This document shows positions 35,935-44,437 of a DNA stretch of 64,000 bases, piece after piece (position 1 is the stretch's first letter; every line of letters begins with the position of its first letter). The stretch lies in NCBI GenBank assembly GCA_030295235.1, contig AP026130.1, positions 1,364,001-1,428,000 of the forward strand, in the 5' to 3' direction. The DNA is from Fistulifera solaris. Its lineage: Eukaryota > Bacillariophyta > Bacillariophyceae > Naviculales > Stauroneidaceae. Under the pieces are notes generated by a model that worked only from the letters and a program-made list of their open reading frames with translations, made no database searches and was not told the origin of the DNA. The position numbers and the translations under genes are program-made.

Positions 35935-36963
35935 CTAAAAGCTTATCTGTCGTCTTTTGGGTTCTCGAAAGGTTTTTCGTTCGTGTGCTTTCAAGCCATC
36001 TTCCGTGAGACGCATGACACCCCGAACCGGGCCATTGACAAGCTCTGCATCTTGAACACCCTTGGGTTGCAACGACTCGGACATTGTCGTAACCGTATCA
36101 TCTTCTTCAGGACCCAGCAGCTTCAGTCCCACTAGCGGACTGAATTCAGATCCCTCACTGCAATAGGATGAATTATCTCGTGCTTTGGGAGTCGTCACAT
36201 GTTCGGGTAATACAAATGGCGCTTTGGGTGATTTGACGTCGGCTCCGAATCGTAATTTTGATGCATTACTTCCGCGCTTGTTGTTGTTTGAGTCTTCCGA
36301 TGCCGTTCGTGGTCTCAGAATACTAGGAAGTGATTTCGAAGATGCCGTGAATGGCTTGACAGGCTCATCCCGTGACGGCTCCGAAAATTGAGCCGAGCGA
36401 GACATTGAAGACGCTTTCGCAGGCGCAGTTGAGTCGTCTTTAATTGAAGCGTAAACATCCCGAAGAGGTTGCTGCTGGTTCTTTTTGGGTGAATCACAAA
36501 CAGGTTCGAAGCGACTGTAGGAACAATTCTTGTGTTCTGTAGGCAGATCATTCGGTTCCGCATTACTATTCTTTGCGTCATCTGCGTCCAGAGAACGCAA
36601 AGGAATGACTTTGTTTCGTTTTTGAGAAGCAGAGGAGGAAGCAGGAGACGGAGAAGGCTTTTCGTTGGGACTATTACCGATTCCCAAGCGCACATTTTGT
36701 TTGTAAGCGTTTAATTGATCTTCGATATCTGTGACATCCAAAAGATTGCGTCCGCTGGCTCTCGTGTTTGCCTCCGAACGTCCCGTACATGTCACTGCAT
36801 CAGGACTTGTGAATATAGATCCAGCTCCGACGGTATCGTCATCTAAAAGTTCAAAAAGACCCTTTCGAGTTGTCGTATTGTTGTGACGATTGTGTTTCTT
36901 CGAACTTTTTCCTTGTGAAGATTCTTTCCCTTTTCGAGATCGACTGCCGTTTTGAAACCACAT
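35935..36963 (-). CDS. Ser-rich unknown protein
   Basis: 342 aa in one frame with no recognisable fold. It is rich in Ser, Asn, Lys and Asp, with basic clusters near the N-terminus (SRSRKGKESSQGKSSKKHNR) and C-terminus (RKTFREPKRRQISF). These could serve as nuclear localisation signals or phosphorylation sites. SRSAQFSEPSRDEP and PSILRPRTAS resemble RxxS kinase target contexts. Mostly disordered. The same strand and close spacing to the RING gene (56 bp) are noted, but a functional link is not shown. Confidence 0.5.
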   Translation of the reverse strand: MWFQNGSRSRKGKESSQGKSSKKHNRHNNTTTRKGLFELLDDDTVGAGSIFTSPDAVTCTGRSEANTRASGRNLLDVTDIEDQLNAYKQNVRLGIGNSPNEKPSPSPASSSASQKRNKVIPLRSLDADDAKNSNAEPNDLPTEHKNCSYSRFEPVCDSPKKNQQQPLRDVYASIKDDSTAPAKASSMSRSAQFSEPSRDEPVKPFTASSKSLPSILRPRTASEDSNNNKRGSNASKLRFGADVKSPKAPFVLPEHVTTPKARDNSSYCSEGSEFSPLVGLKLLGPEEDDTVTTMSESLQPKGVQDAELVNGPVRGVMRLTEDGLKAHERKTFREPKRRQISF

Positions 36964-37410
36964 AACTATTGTAAATGCTGAGTAGAATGTTAAATATGAT
37001 TATAACAAGGCATTAAGAGAGGTGATGATAAAGAAGAAGAAGTTGAATGATGGAGTTGCACATTCGACCGACGCGAAAGACAAAACGGTGGCCGAAAAAT
37101 CATTCGGTGGTTTTTCACTTTCGCAATGAGGGCAGAAGGAGCATTTTGCGGACAAATTTGTGTCACACAAACAGGCCTAGCACGCCGTCACGGCCGAACG
37201 ACTCAGTTACTATGAAACATTCACAAGTAGACGTTTCCTGTTTAATAGATGTTTGAGTCTTGTTTGCTAAGTAGAAAGGGGTAGAAAACTTGAATCACGA
37301 TAATCTGTGATATCATTGGTCGCCCGCCCCTTCCCAAATAAGAGCACGACTGAGATGACGTGACACAGAAAGTTCCAAATTACTCGGAGTCTCATGTCGC
37401 TCCGGGTCCT

Positions 37411-37495: not shown

Positions 37496-38127
37496 CCTTT
37501 TCTCTCTGTTTCTGCACCAAATCAATTTACTAAACCTAGCTTATAGTTGTTGGGAATGGCTAGCAGAAATAATAATATGACTTCATAGTTTGTAAACGCA
37601 TTGATTGGATTATGTAGAATTACACATTATCCGGGTCTCCTTTGATCTGCGCTAACCTTAGTCTACCTGGTCGGCGCGCGGCGGGACGACACGACACCAC
37701 CATCGCACGCTTTTATTTATTTTTTGGCAGTTGAACCATGCTGGTGGACCTTTTTGGACCGTACGTCGTCCGATTTACATAGGAAAACGACATGCCAGAG
37801 CGACATTGCCATCCAAATACTTTTTGGATCCAGCCAATCAGATGGCTTACATCCAAAAAGTCGAGCCAATCCAGCCAATCACAAGCGTCCCATCCAAAAG
37901 AGACTTTTAGCCGTCTGCTAGTTTTCCGCGTTGAGCAATCGATAGCCTACCGGTACTCACTGTACAGTAAATCGAGGTTTAACCTTAAGCACTCTCAATG
38001 TAGCTGGCCAAAAGAATGCATCCGTTCCAATTTTTGGCCGATAATTATTTCTGCAAAAGAATGACATCGGCACAAACGAGAATAACTCGTCTCATCTTTT
38101 CGATTGCAAAGTTATCACACGAAAAGA

Positions 38128-41100
38128 ATGCCAGGAACATCAAAAAGAGGTCGGGGCCCCGACAAAGTCCAGCGAAGTCGCTCGTCAAACAAAAAGATTA
38201 GTTTGAAAAGATGGAGCTCGAAAAAGCAAAGAGAAAAGAGCAAGCTAGTGTGGATGCCACGTCCGCTGTAATGCACTCTTTTTTAGGCATAAAGGTTCCC
38301 GAAAAGGCCACCCCTGTAGAAGAAGAAGTCTGTGAAGATGTTGACATGACTGGCGAAGAACTAGAAAAGCAATTTACTGAGCGTCTTGTGATCGATGATA
38401 CAACAGGTCAACCTGGCGACGTCGGCGTCGGCGATGATGACGACGACGCTCTTGGCTTCCGAGGGAAGACGGGGACTATAATGAGGATAGCAATGAGTTG
38501 AACGACGGCCGGCATCATGTCAAATTATCTTTCTAAGATTCAGACGAGGCTGAGAGATGAAACGCGTTGTCACTTCAAAAGGGGAGACGAGAAAATTCCT
38601 GACGATCAGAAATGGCTTCTGAAAATGCTTGAGGAGCACCAGTTCTCTCTTCCGTGGCAGCTTGCTTCAACACTGTGCAACAAGCTTGGGATAAATTCGG
38701 CTCCTTCTGCGTACTATTGCACTGTACATGTGTGGTTACCAGATGTCCAATTCAACAAAATGCCACCTTGCGGAGAATGCAAGTCAAATGCCCATGTTGG
38801 TCGTCATGCATTTGATTCCAGTTATCCTGGGCTGCCGATATCTGGCTTAAAAAAGGACGAGAATGCGTTATGACAATGCGGTATTGTTGTTCGAGGTGCA
38901 AGAGCGGAGAAAAGTCCTACACGTTTCGCGGATACAATCTGAAAAGTTTGGAATTGATGCCGCTTAGTCGAAAGATTTGCTTCCCGGCTCTCTTAACGCA
39001 CAAAAGCGGGGTCACTATGGAGCTAGCTCGACTCGTTCGCTCACTTGTATCGAAAAATGTGCGTTCGAATTCTCTTGCTGCAATAATTGCGGAAATGCAC
39101 CAGCTCGAGCACAAGCAGCAAATGTTGCTCTATGAGTTGGAGGTAGCAGCTTCGCTTCTACCCGAACAGATGACAATAAAGCACCATTGTTTAGCGACTT
39201 CAATGATCGGAAAGGATACAATGGCCGATTGATTACCGGGAAGTACATTCAGAGCATCTATCAACGCCTCATTCACTCCTTCCGGGAACTGGCTGACGAC
39301 ACGAAGAAGAGGGATTCTGAGATGATTAAGATTGACGCATCTTATAAATTCTGAGGCGTTTGAAACGGGTTGGCGGCGAAAGTGTTTGATGGTCTAGTCA
39401 CAGTGATGAATGAATTTAAAGAGATTCGTTCGCATTTTGTAATCTTTGGAGAGAGCCACGACCAGATGCGGCCGCCGCTACAAGCCATGAAGGCGACAAT
39501 GGATTCAAATGGCCAAGCCGGCCCCAAACTTGCTTTCACTGACAGCCCCAAGCGAGACGGCCGACATGCTTATTTCCGTTTTCGATTCCTTGGCAGTAAC
39601 TCAAGAGGCTTATAATACAATTGCAGAGGAGGAAAATAAGCAGCTAGGAGACAAGTCGGAACCCACTGAGTTGCTCAAGTCAGCATGGCAACGTCTTCTC
39701 ACGACCGTCGCTTCCAATCTGTTCGATTAAGCATCATAATTATTCAGTTATTGAGGCTGATAAGGACATTACAATGTTTGCAGGAACCGCCATGGATCTG
39801 ATGAAAGACAGGCAGGCAGAAAAGCGTATCATGGCGCTTGATCTTGAATGGCCGGTCCACTTCAATAACAACGGTCGCATCAAAGGACAGGGAAAAGTTG
39901 CGACCATACAATTGTCATATCACACCTGTCAGGGCAACCTGGATAACGACATTTGTACTACAGTCATTCGCGTTCAACAGACAACAACTAAATTGAATGC
40001 AACACTTGTGCGTCTACTGAGCGAAGACTCTATCCGATTTGTGGGTGTGAATGTTGCTGGTGATGTGACCAAGCTAAAAAAAGATTTCGCCAACATGAAC
40101 AATGTGTCTGTAAACAAGATTGACTTGAGGGTCATGGCAAGGCGTCGTGGTGTTGTGCCACGGAATGGATCGTATAGTCTTGTTGCACTAGTCGAAGCCC
40201 AGCTGAAGGAATCGATGGAAAAGGATCAGAGAATGTCCGATTGGTCGGGTCCACTACAACCAAAACAGCAGGACTATGCCGCCTTAGATGCAATCAAAAG
40301 TCTGCAAGTATACGATTCTCTCGATAAACTGCCAGATTTAACAAGGGAACTTCAGCAAGGAGATTTTAGCTGGAACTAAGGTCACTATTGTTGCAAGTAA
40401 GGGCAGTAAGGCATCCATTCCGACGCCCGGTGCAGAGGGGGAGATACTTTCTCAAAAACAGATCTGGACAGCACCAAAAACATTTACATTCGTTGAAGGC
40501 CGGAAGCAAACCAGGCGGTCAATTTGTACTTGTTCGAATTAAAAGGTTCTGGCGCCGGGCTTGATAATGGATGGTTATAGGAAAGGCAGGAAAGGTGTCT
40601 CGCTGGGAGATTTTGTAAAAACCTTTGCAGATGGCGATTTCGTGATGATGGTTAATCTTTCACAGTTGCGCTCTCAGCACCAGCAGGAATCATCGTCCAG
40701 CTCATCAGACGCTATCAACCCGAATCCGGTGATCCATACTACAGAGCTCAACGAGGTGAATGCGAGTATAGTGAACGCTGACAACGAAACAGCTACAACG
40801 ACCGGTTTCGCGAGAAGATGATTTGTTTACCCACGATTACATATTTGAACACGAGAATGAAGAAGATATCAGCCCTGATCCTGATTCTACGGATGCTTTT
40901 GACGACTTCTCAGAACTTACCCCTGCTAAAATCCGAGAAATCGATGATATCATAAGGCGCGGTCGATAAGATGGGCCCTCTTACTGCACAGGACGGAGAA
41001 AAATACCTGGATCCGCCGCCGAAATCGATACCGATTTGCTACTCCGCTGTGCTCGGAGACATTATACACGCAATTATGCGAATAAAGGTTCCAGCAAAGC

Positions 41101-42570
41101 ACGAATGCCGCAAAGCTTACTCTGCTGCGCTTGTACGAGCGTTTTTAGAATGGGATCCTGAACGGTTAAAAGAGGTCAAAGAAGCATTGGTCAAATTAGG
41201 TGTTTCCGAAAGGAGATAGAGGCACGATTGTACTACAACATACAGTGGTTCGCAGCATGTGTCGGCGAGCCCTTCCTCCGCATCTCCTTTATTGGCGTGT
41301 TCGTGCCGTTCTATCATACTTTGGCGACAAAATCGACAGCGTGTCCAAGAAGCCTCTCTTCGGAAAAAATGAATGGAACAAGGCCAAAAGTCTGCTCTCC
41401 GACATACGGAAAGGATATTATTCCGACCCACCCGGTGTATCATTCTACCGATATAGAGTGGATGGTCGGGGACAAATAATTCGCGACCGGAAAGGATTTG
41501 CGCTTCTTACGTGTACCAGAGGAACAAACGATGTCGAGAACGAACATAGGAATCTCCTTGGGCCGATCGGAAACTCGCCAGTGGGACTTGAAATGATGGA
41601 CTGTCTTTTGACCGATATACGTCTCCGAAGAAACATGATTTCAGCCCGAAAGTACCGACTGAACTTTCCAGACATTCGACATTTTGATCCCTGGTTAGTA
41701 GACGAATTACAGATTCACGGGTAGAAGAGGGTCGCAAAGTACTATTGTACCCGAACTGGATAAACTCATGTGATCTTGCAGAGACCCCGGAACGTTTTGG
41801 TTTCGTCGGTCTTCCCAGATCAGAGCTGACCGACGCAATAAATGAACGCGCTGCAACAATTGAGAACCTTGAGAATTGTGTTATCGAGAAACGTCTTTCG
41901 AAAGACATGCAGTATATAGCCAAATGCATTGGAACAAAATTGCCGTATCAACCTTTTTCGACTGCCGAGGAAATATCGATGTACGCACAACTGCGAATCA
42001 ATGTAACCGAAAATCAACGAATCAAGCCAGATGACCCGAACTTTGAGCTAGCTATTTGTCATGCCATTGTACCCCGTGTCGATGGAATTCGGATTTTTCC
42101 AAAGACGCCCCATTTATGTTCGGCAAATGGAAAAGAGATATCTTGAGAGGAAACGGATAGGCTCAGCCGTGAAGTATGTACAGTGCATTGGACGCACTCA
42201 GTAGTCTGAATGAAGCCACATCTACCATAGCAATCAACGCTTTGTCCGCCTCAAATGCATTGCAGAGCGGTGAACATATCGAAAAGGACGACAGCACCCA
42301 GATGCGAAAACTCTGCCCTCCTATCTTGCTGCCGAGACCAATCTTCGGCGTGAGTGGAAACATGATACAACGGGCGTGAATCTGTACCAATCGCACAGAA
42401 AAGGCAAAGCCGACCCCCAAAACGTGGCCGGTGTGGATAAGAAACCACGTCAAGGAAGACATTGCAAAACTTGTAAGCGTCCACTTGCCCAATGCCCTGC
42501 TGCCGCAGTAAGTAAGTCGGCTAAAAGGGTGTGCACTTACATCGAAAACACAGAAGCACAACAAATATAA
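38128..42570 (+). CDS. Transposase-like protein: zinc-binding N-terminal domain, DDE core, exonuclease insert (frame interrupted)
   Basis: The same family pattern runs through three plus-strand frames. Order: acidic N-terminus (38211-38500); a Cys-rich domain with CGEC (~38770) and CCSRCKSG (~38885) followed by LSRKICFPALLTHKSGVTME, resembling the domain catalogued as DUF6729 in eukaryotic exonuclease-containing proteins; IDASYK (Asp codon 39334); VFDGLVTVMNEF; LAFTDSPKRD (Asp codon 39541); the exonuclease (39774-40379); then LTCTRGTNDVENEHRN (Glu near 41540) and HFDPWLVDELQ; and a C-terminal CKTCKRPLAQC cysteine knuckle. Asp to Asp is ~69 codons and Asp to Glu ~670, so the exonuclease sits in the usual insertion position of a DDE fold. 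At least seven frame changes occur, several at short runs. Introns were not convincingly found. DDE assignment is inference. Confidence 0.6.
39774..40379 (+). CDS. WRN-type DEDDy 3'-5' exonuclease domain within the transposon
   Basis: A 201-codon stretch with no interruption. Exo I is MALDLEWPV (Asp and Glu metal ligands), Exo II is FVGVNVAGDVTKL (Asp), and Exo III is QQDYAALDAIKSLQVYD (Tyr and Asp). So all DEDDy catalytic residues are present. The fold matches the Werner/RNase D group that trims 3' ends of DNA or RNA. It is part of the longer transposase-like protein rather than a separate gene, since family sequence continues on both sides. It is the best preserved segment of the element. 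Confidence 0.8.
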   Translation: MFAGTAMDLMKDRQAEKRIMALDLEWPVHFNNNGRIKGQGKVATIQLSYHTCQGNLDNDICTTVIRVQQTTTKLNATLVRLLSEDSIRFVGVNVAGDVTKLKKDFANMNNVSVNKIDLRVMARRRGVVPRNGSYSLVALVEAQLKESMEKDQRMSDWSGPLQPKQQDYAALDAIKSLQVYDSLDKLPDLTRELQQGDFSWN

Positions 42571-42997
42571 TCATTAATGGCTGCATGTTAAATAAAAATA
42601 TCGTTTCAATTTTCATTGACGTATTCCTAACACTGGCGGCATTCCTATGATGCAAATCGTGGACTTTACTGAAGGTCCCGTGAGGGTCGCTACCGCACTC
42701 ATCGTGTACATAGAGACTACTATCTCGGAAAGGGATAAAGCATTTTTGCGTCTGAAGTCGCTCGCTCCGCTCGCGACTTTTAAAATTTCCAAATGGTCCA
42801 CCAGCATGGTTCAACTGCCTATTTTTTTGTTCCGTGTTCTTTTTGCACAGTTCGCTCTCACGACGATAAGGAAGTGTGAAAGTGATGGTCATTATTGTTA
42901 CAAAGTCTTCATCATTAAACGCATAACTTCTCCCTCGTTTCATTCACTGATCTTCACAGCTCATCTTTCAACTAAAACGAACGAAAGAAATAGGCAA

Positions 42998-44437
42998 ATG
43001 GACGAAAAACTCTTGAATAACCATCTCGAAGGAGACGAGTACTTTTTACAAGAACAACACGGCAATTTGCTTTCCCCGTCGCCTCTTTTGACAGTACGAA
43101 CTGATGTATCTTATCCAAATACACAAGAAAAACCCGCTCGTGCGTATCGCAATCAAGGAGCGGCTTTGTTATTTCTGATGCACATGGCGGTCGTTTTTTA
43201 TTGCGCTTTACAAGGAGGATGGCCCGTCGCCGTCGAACAACGATTGTTGGGTCTTTTGTTCCTCACAGGATGCACGGCTGTCGCTCTTTCGACAATAGCG
43301 TGGTATGCTATGACGCAGTATTCACAACACTTTGTTGTCGTGGCGTTAAGTTCGACTTTTGCGGGGCATTTCTTTGCTGCCGGTGTCTTGATTTATTTTC
43401 GTTGGTGGTCGGGTGTGCTTCTAGCTATCGCATTTGCCGCGGTTACGTTAATTTACTTACGGACTGTATGGGATCGGACGCATGTAGCGGCAGCACAGTT
43501 GCAAGTTGCGCTGCAAGCCATTGAACGTAATAAAGCAGTGCTGTCCCTGACCTATTTCATATTACTTTCACTGCAATTGTGGGTGTTGATATGGCTCATG
43601 GCTTGGCTAGGATTTTATAATTTGACTTATGGAGAAAACTGTTCGGATAATAATGACAACGACGATCAAGGCTATTACTGCATAGTTCGATTGGGAGGAC
43701 ATGGTGGTGTTCTATTTTTCTTTTGGCTGTCTTTTTTCTGGACGACTCAAGTCCTCCGCAACGTGTTGCGTGTGACCGTAGCAGGTGTGGTGGGCTCTTT
43801 TGTCTGTCGTCCCGAATATCCAGCGGTAGGGGAAGCGTTTCGGCATGCAACGACGTCTTCCTTTGGTTCAATATGCTTCGGAAGTCTTCTGACGGCATTA
43901 ATTCAAGCGTTGTATCAAATTTGCCGCATGCTTCAGAGGACGTCATCTTCCTCATCAGGAAACTTTCTCGTTTGCATCGTCGACTGTATTGTGGGGTTTT
44001 TAGAGCGACTAACGGTTTACTTCCACAAATGGAGTTACATCTACATTGGCCTTTATGGGGACGACTACTTAACCGCAGGACAGAATGTGCTGCAACTTTT
44101 TCGGGAACGTGGTTGGGATACGATCATTACCGATCAACTCGTTGTAAGAACGCTGCAGTTGTTTGCGACAATGGTAGGCGTTAGTACAGGTGCAGTTGCA
44201 CTGTTGATGGGGCCGTCTTTGCATTGGTCGAAACTTGTTACATTTGCTATACCGGCGCTACTGGGAGGAACTCTGTCTTACATTTTATTTCTCAGTGTCG
44301 TCGGAGCGGCTGTAGACTCCATCATAGTTCTCTTTGCGGAAGCGCCGCTCGAACTCGAGCGAAATCATCCAGGGCTCTATCGGCAGATGGTAACAGCTTG
44401 GTCCCAGCTGTATCCCGACGAATTCCGTGCCCCCTGA
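42998..44437 (+). CDS. Choline transporter-like protein (CTL/SLC44, PNS1-like)
   Basis: A 479-aa polytopic membrane protein in one clean frame. About ten hydrophobic segments are visible. The C-terminal half has the family pattern QVLRNVLRVTVAGVVGSFVC, then SFGSICFGSLLTALIQAL, then HKWSYIYIGLYGDDYLTAGQ and LLMGP, all typical of CTL proteins. The N-terminus (~1-55) is hydrophilic. Met at 42998 was chosen because upstream in-frame codons run into the transposon end and lack similarity. CTL proteins carry choline or related substrates across the plasma or organelle membranes; the substrate here is not shown. The transposon insertion lies 178 bp upstream, inside the expected promoter. Confidence 0.85.
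   Translation: MDEKLLNNHLEGDEYFLQEQHGNLLSPSPLLTVRTDVSYPNTQEKPARAYRNQGAALLFLMHMAVVFYCALQGGWPVAVEQRLLGLLFLTGCTAVALSTIAWYAMTQYSQHFVVVALSSTFAGHFFAAGVLIYFRWWSGVLLAIAFAAVTLIYLRTVWDRTHVAAAQLQVALQAIERNKAVLSLTYFILLSLQLWVLIWLMAWLGFYNLTYGENCSDNNDNDDQGYYCIVRLGGHGGVLFFFWLSFFWTTQVLRNVLRVTVAGVVGSFVCRPEYPAVGEAFRHATTSSFGSICFGSLLTALIQALYQICRMLQRTSSSSSGNFLVCIVDCIVGFLERLTVYFHKWSYIYIGLYGDDYLTAGQNVLQLFRERGWDTIITDQLVVRTLQLFATMVGVSTGAVALLMGPSLHWSKLVTFAIPALLGGTLSYILFLSVVGAAVDSIIVLFAEAPLELERNHPGLYRQMVTAWSQLYPDEFRAP

Follow-up and report, generated by a model that had tools for sequence, protein, structure and literature searches.

The stretch of Fistulifera solaris DNA analyzed here, 64,000 nucleotides of contig AP026130.1 (hereafter the window, to which all coordinates refer unless another contig is named), contains a 5094-bp element that is bounded by 25-bp terminal inverted repeats (TIRs) and carries a DEDDy 3′-5′ exonuclease among the sequence blocks of a predicted transposase (Table 1). 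The element is probably a cut-and-paste DNA transposon encoding a single large transposase of the exonuclease-bearing Dada type. Its two TIRs are identical at 25 of 25 positions, as the initial annotation had stated, and within the window the 25-bp sequence is matched at these two places only (≤3 mismatches; mean of 0.00 in 100 shuffles). The 8-bp sequence TATTTTTT directly adjoins either end.

Table 1. Features of the element, given as window coordinates.
Feature	Position	Strand	Basis
Left target duplication TATTTTTT	37718..37725	.	Sequence at junction
Whole element, 5094 bp	37726..42819	+	TIRs, duplication and copies elsewhere
Left TIR, 25 bp	37726..37750	+	TIR scan
Two CxxC pairs (zinc finger), at 38769 and 38888	38769..38899	+	Motif; weak DUF6729 match from ~38885
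DASYK block, proposed first catalytic Asp	39334..39348	+	Motif; catalytic role inferred
DSPKRD block, proposed second catalytic Asp	39541..39558	+	Motif; catalytic role inferred
DEDDy 3′-5′ exonuclease, WRN-like	~39825..40328	+	Pfam, PDB and residue alignment
GDIIHAI, candidate DxxH	41055..41075	+	Four-letter motif match only
RGTNDVENEH block, proposed catalytic Glu	41518..41547	+	Motif; catalytic role inferred
C-terminal cysteine knuckle CKTCKRPLAQC	42463..42495	+	Motif
Right TIR, 25 bp	42795..42819	-	TIR scan
Right target duplication TATTTTTT	42820..42827	.	Sequence at junction

The initial annotation took the element for a member of a TIR transposon family with 8-bp target duplications and suggested a genome search for further copies of its ends, and such copies exist. 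In the whole genome (51.7 Mb in 61 contigs, named C1, C39 and so on), the 25-bp TIR has 9 matches at ≤3 mismatches, compared with 0 for the reversed control, and these belong to the window copy, two copies on C39, a 1202-bp element on C30, and a solitary end on C3. The C39 copies are near full-length (C39:7272-12358 and C39:12366-17450; 5087 and 5085 bp) and lie head to tail, separated by AAATTTT, with outer flanks AAAATTTT on the left and CAAAATTTT on the right. Over aligned columns, their identity to the window copy is 97.6 and 98.0%, respectively, and that between the two is 99.1%. The C30 element (C30:581625-582826) is a derivative that keeps both ends and is flanked by GAAAAAAA. A looser terminal pattern finds 35 matches in the genome and 0 in the control, 6 of the 35 being the ends of the three full copies. 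A DNA search of the genome with the whole element returns at least 24 matches, its counts being lower bounds because the two C39 copies are absent from the matches listed; in this search, short relatives share with the window element up to 192 bp at the left end and 39–70 bp at the right end. Short elements measuring ~0.8–1.8 kb, whose TIRs are related (GGCANNNNNNCCATGCTGGTGGACC) and whose target duplications are 8 bp long, occur on C2, C3, C5, C8, C9, C10, C11, and C30 (loci L012 and L016–L034), and most of the 35 related ends are not linked to the window element's own subfamily. On C11, two short relatives of ~1215 bp each form a tandem pair with a 7-base spacer, like the C39 pair (C11:545109-547530; L016, L019).

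Target duplications were assessed in the 10 elements for which both ends are readable, with the tandem pairs on C39 and at C11:545109-547530 judged separately, since within each pair the two units serve as each other's inner flank; the remaining ends among the 35 are single or have flanks outside the sample and do not enter the count. The 8-bp flanks agree at all eight positions in seven of the 10 elements (TATTTTTT, GAAAAAAA, AAAAAAAC, GTAAAAGT, CATTTTTT, GGTACTGG, and CACCAAAC), compared with 0 of 90 control pairings of left and right flanks from different elements. The C8 element matches at 7/8, a level reached by 3 of the 90 control pairings, while those on C5 (2/8) and C10 (5/8) show no agreement. 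Bases in the seven duplications are A or T in 75% of cases (42/56), against 54% in the window. One-base irregularities at the ends of the two tandem pairs and of the C8 element could reflect end processing or sequence error. No RNA gene is evident at the insertion sites scanned: a search with Rfam at the gathering score gives no match in 98,638 bases from 10 sources, and transfer RNA (tRNA) genes are absent from 10 loci and the window, the C5, C10, and C11 elements lying outside both scans.

The sequences flanking the window element have a homoeologous region on C12 (86% identity on the left; 89 and 87% on the right), and this region does not contain the element. Homology on the right side begins at the junction, inside the duplication; BLAST leaves the 316 bases that immediately precede the left junction unaligned. 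Thus, the absence of the element is clear, and the exact pre-insertion site is visible on one side only.

Along the gene body, the blocks follow the order CxxC, CxxC, DASYK, DSPKRD, exonuclease, linker, GDIIHAI, RGTNDVENEH, and CKTCKRPLAQC. All of the blocks quoted in the initial annotation are present on the plus strand, with the qualification, not made there, that most of those in the window copy lie in different reading frames. The exonuclease has matches to Pfam DNA_pol_A_exo1 (E 2.7e-11) and, in the PDB, to the WRN exonuclease (E 2.9e-8), and aligning the window exonuclease with two host homologs shows no variation at any of the five DEDDy residues, indicating a complete WRN-like DEDDy domain. 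It follows the second Asp block and precedes the RGTNxVE block, as the initial annotation had placed it. Searching the genome with the exonuclease piece gives 8 matches, of which the three full copies account for 6 and the pair of host DEDDy exonuclease genes on C26 (L052) and C25 (L053) for 2; the transposon exonuclease is 26% identical to this pair. In the protein of L052, the member of the pair that was scanned, Pfam additionally identifies an aminoacyl-tRNA editing domain (E 1.5e-16 and 8.4e-14). Near the second CxxC pair lies a weak match to DUF6729 (20.5 and 22.1 bits), below the cut-off of 27. Proteins with DUF6729 often carry an exonuclease, and the domain is not mentioned in the literature searched. 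Its profile finds three places in the genome, one in a C39 copy and two weak ones (E 0.38 and 0.41), and the frames at the latter hold nothing resembling a transposase. Of the 9 genomic matches to the piece bearing the Glu block, 7 fall within the three full copies, and the other 2 are weak (E 0.35 and 0.48).

Outside the genome, the Glu-block piece gives 2 pattern stretches in viral contigs and 9 in a collection of genome contigs, and the exonuclease piece gives 1 in viral contigs, with 0 confirmed in each case. A DNA pattern for the two Asp blocks, in which the first Asp is searched in its GAC-GCN form only, has 0 matches in viral contigs, and a tblastn search of plasmids yields no match. 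The pattern RGT[NS]xVExxH has three matches, which were rejected, all being in frames of 66–97 amino acids (aa) without further likeness.

No open frame spans the gene in any of the three full copies, the longest open pieces being 243, 180, and 199 aa. Indels private to one copy number 25 in the window copy, 32 in the first C39 copy, and 18 in the second, and private substitutions number 84, 32, and 12, respectively. These indels, of 1–2 bases, are often adjacent to substitutions. The high ratio of indels to substitutions is odd for plain decay and may reflect assembly error; the neighboring choline-transporter-like open reading frame (ORF) is open through 605 codons, and the indels are possibly a sequencing artefact limited to the transposon. 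Despite its broken frames, the reading is under coding constraint. Excluding columns within 4 of a gap and the piece edges, the window copy differs from both C39 copies at 43 positions, comprising 19 silent changes, 24 residue replacements, and 0 stops; the silent share exceeds the 25% expected with transitions weighted ×2 (binomial p = 0.005).

The initial annotation knew of no described superfamily with this architecture. However, the placement of an exonuclease inside a DDE transposase is already known, since it has been described for Dada (PMC3706591; this and the other articles cited here are drawn on in excerpt), the sole source with such an architecture in the literature looked into. 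Dada transposases, as defined by Kojima and Jurka (2013), are DDE enzymes that contain a DxxH motif and have zinc fingers at the N-terminus (CCCC) and at the C-terminus (CCHC); in Laccaria bicolor and Ectocarpus siliculosus, Dada families also carry a DEDDy exonuclease, located after the second Asp and before DxxH (PMC3706591). The window element has its exonuclease at this same position, and the two CxxC pairs match the N-terminal CCCC finger. Spacing is also similar to that of Dada-U6_DR: the two Asp blocks are 69–70 residues apart in the window family and 68 in Dada-U6_DR, the CxxC pairs ~37 codons (across a frame change) and 35, and the distance from CxxC to the first Asp ~146 codons and 135, respectively; the candidate DxxH lies ~159 residues before the Glu, where Dada-U6_DR has 176 from the second Asp to the Glu (PMC3706591). 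At 5094 bp, the element falls inside the 4.7–11 kb range of Dada, and tandem copies separated by target-like sequence are found both here and in Dada-U1 (PMC3706591).

Several points weigh against a transposase of the Dada type. Perfect 25-bp TIRs contrast with the described Dada ends, in which TIRs were not found (PMC3706591), and 8-bp duplications (7/10 elements) contrast with the 6–7 bp of Dada (PMC3706591; PMC8869645). Many Dada families insert in RNA genes (PMC3706591; PMC8869645), the described targets being small nuclear RNA or tRNA genes (PMC3706591), whereas the elements scanned here occupy A/T-rich sites without RNA genes. The C-terminal knuckle reads CxxCx6C with no evident His, in contrast to the CCHC of Dada. 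Pfam transposase models find no match in 20 open pieces (E up to 1 or 5), and a PDB search with the two-Asp part returns a glucosyltransferase alone (E 0.12). AlphaFold2 gives unusable models both for the piece with the two Asp blocks (predicted local distance difference test, pLDDT, 39.9) and for the exonuclease with its two host relatives (pLDDT 36.8). The Asp and Glu blocks never share an open piece in any of the copies, and the DxxH and Glu assignments, being picked by motif, could be chance matches. Kinship to Dada is suggested by block order and spacing, with the Dada proteins compared by their published description. In the excerpts of PMC3706591, ends and duplications are reported for RNA-gene-targeting Dada only, none of which is said to carry the exonuclease. 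Because the ends, the duplication length, and the targets differ, the family is regarded as Dada-like and is not filed as a member of Dada.

These same differences in ends and targets lend some weight to a DDE superfamily in its own right, with kinship to Dada, hAT or KDZ, in which the exonuclease was either gained independently or shared with Dada by descent. The window family shares its 8-bp duplication with hAT and Zisupton/KDZ, in which this length is usual (PMC12730594), it has 25-bp TIRs, and the loci scanned give no sign of RNA-gene targeting. Yet Pfam models for the KDZ/Zisupton transposase and for the hAT transposase and dimerization domain find no match in the 20 pieces (E up to 1 or 5), and two Dada families have the same unusual insert at the identical place with similar spacing (PMC3706591), so that a separate superfamily seems unlikely, if deserving of some consideration. 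KolobokD is likewise a DDE transposon encoding a 3′-5′ exonuclease, though its exonuclease is of the DEDDh type and Kolobok duplications are the 4-bp TTAA (PMC9587614), whereas the exonuclease here is DEDDy and the duplications are of 8 bp, none being TTAA. A combination of long TIRs and 8-bp duplications with such an architecture was not found in the literature searched, Repbase being outside its scope.

It could also be argued, from the broken frames of all three full copies and the presence of a host exonuclease gene pair in the genome, that the exonuclease, rather than serving as a working part of the transposase, represents either part of a host gene that was captured or an insertion nested within a decaying transposon. 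Against this, the insert is present in 3/3 full copies, the window copy keeps the DEDDy residues, identity to the host pair is only 26%, silent changes exceed expectation across the reading, and Dada elements with such an insert are known from a fungus and a brown alga (PMC3706591), making such an origin highly improbable. A transposase of the exonuclease-bearing Dada type thus remains the preferred reading. A tentative extension, to which rather little confidence is attached, is that the exonuclease-bearing branch forms a lineage of its own apart from the RNA-gene-targeting Dada, characterized by long TIRs, 8-bp duplications in A/T runs, and one enzyme coupling 3′-end trimming to excision and strand transfer; the one-base irregularities on C39, C11, and C8 would then be its footprint.

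Under the preferred reading, the transposase would comprise a zinc finger, an RNase H-like DDE core, and a C-terminal cysteine knuckle, with the DEDDy exonuclease splitting the core after the second Asp and ahead of DxxH. Binding of the 25-bp TIRs and excision of the element would fall to the DDE core, as would insertion with an 8-bp stagger, mostly into A/T runs. For Dada, Kojima and Jurka suggest that the exonuclease processes cleaved 3′ ends (PMC3706591), and here it would most likely trim 3′ ends exposed in excision. The more plausible substrate is the broken donor flanks or surplus bases attached to the element, because the 3′ ends belonging to the element itself are required for strand transfer.

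At the locus itself, a 354-codon ORF on the minus strand (35935-36999) lies to the left of the element. The right neighbor is the choline-transporter-like gene (Pfam E 1.2e-55), the likely start codon of which is at 42998, so that the element lies ~180 bp upstream (42820-42998); the C12 homoeologue is without the element. Also adjoining the element, the segment 37414-37512 accounts for 78 of the 80 genomic matches listed, partly in arrays with a step of ~215 bp (e.g., C1:1991762-1993466 and C5:893578-895379), which suggests a dispersed repeat or satellite.

The occupied window site and its empty C12 homoeologue form a natural pair for effects on expression. For an exonuclease-bearing transposase, the window family supplies ends, duplications, an empty homoeologous site, and short derivatives, and the role of the embedded 3′-5′ exonuclease therefore becomes testable with defined substrates. 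The Dada group may accordingly be broader in its ends and targets than described.

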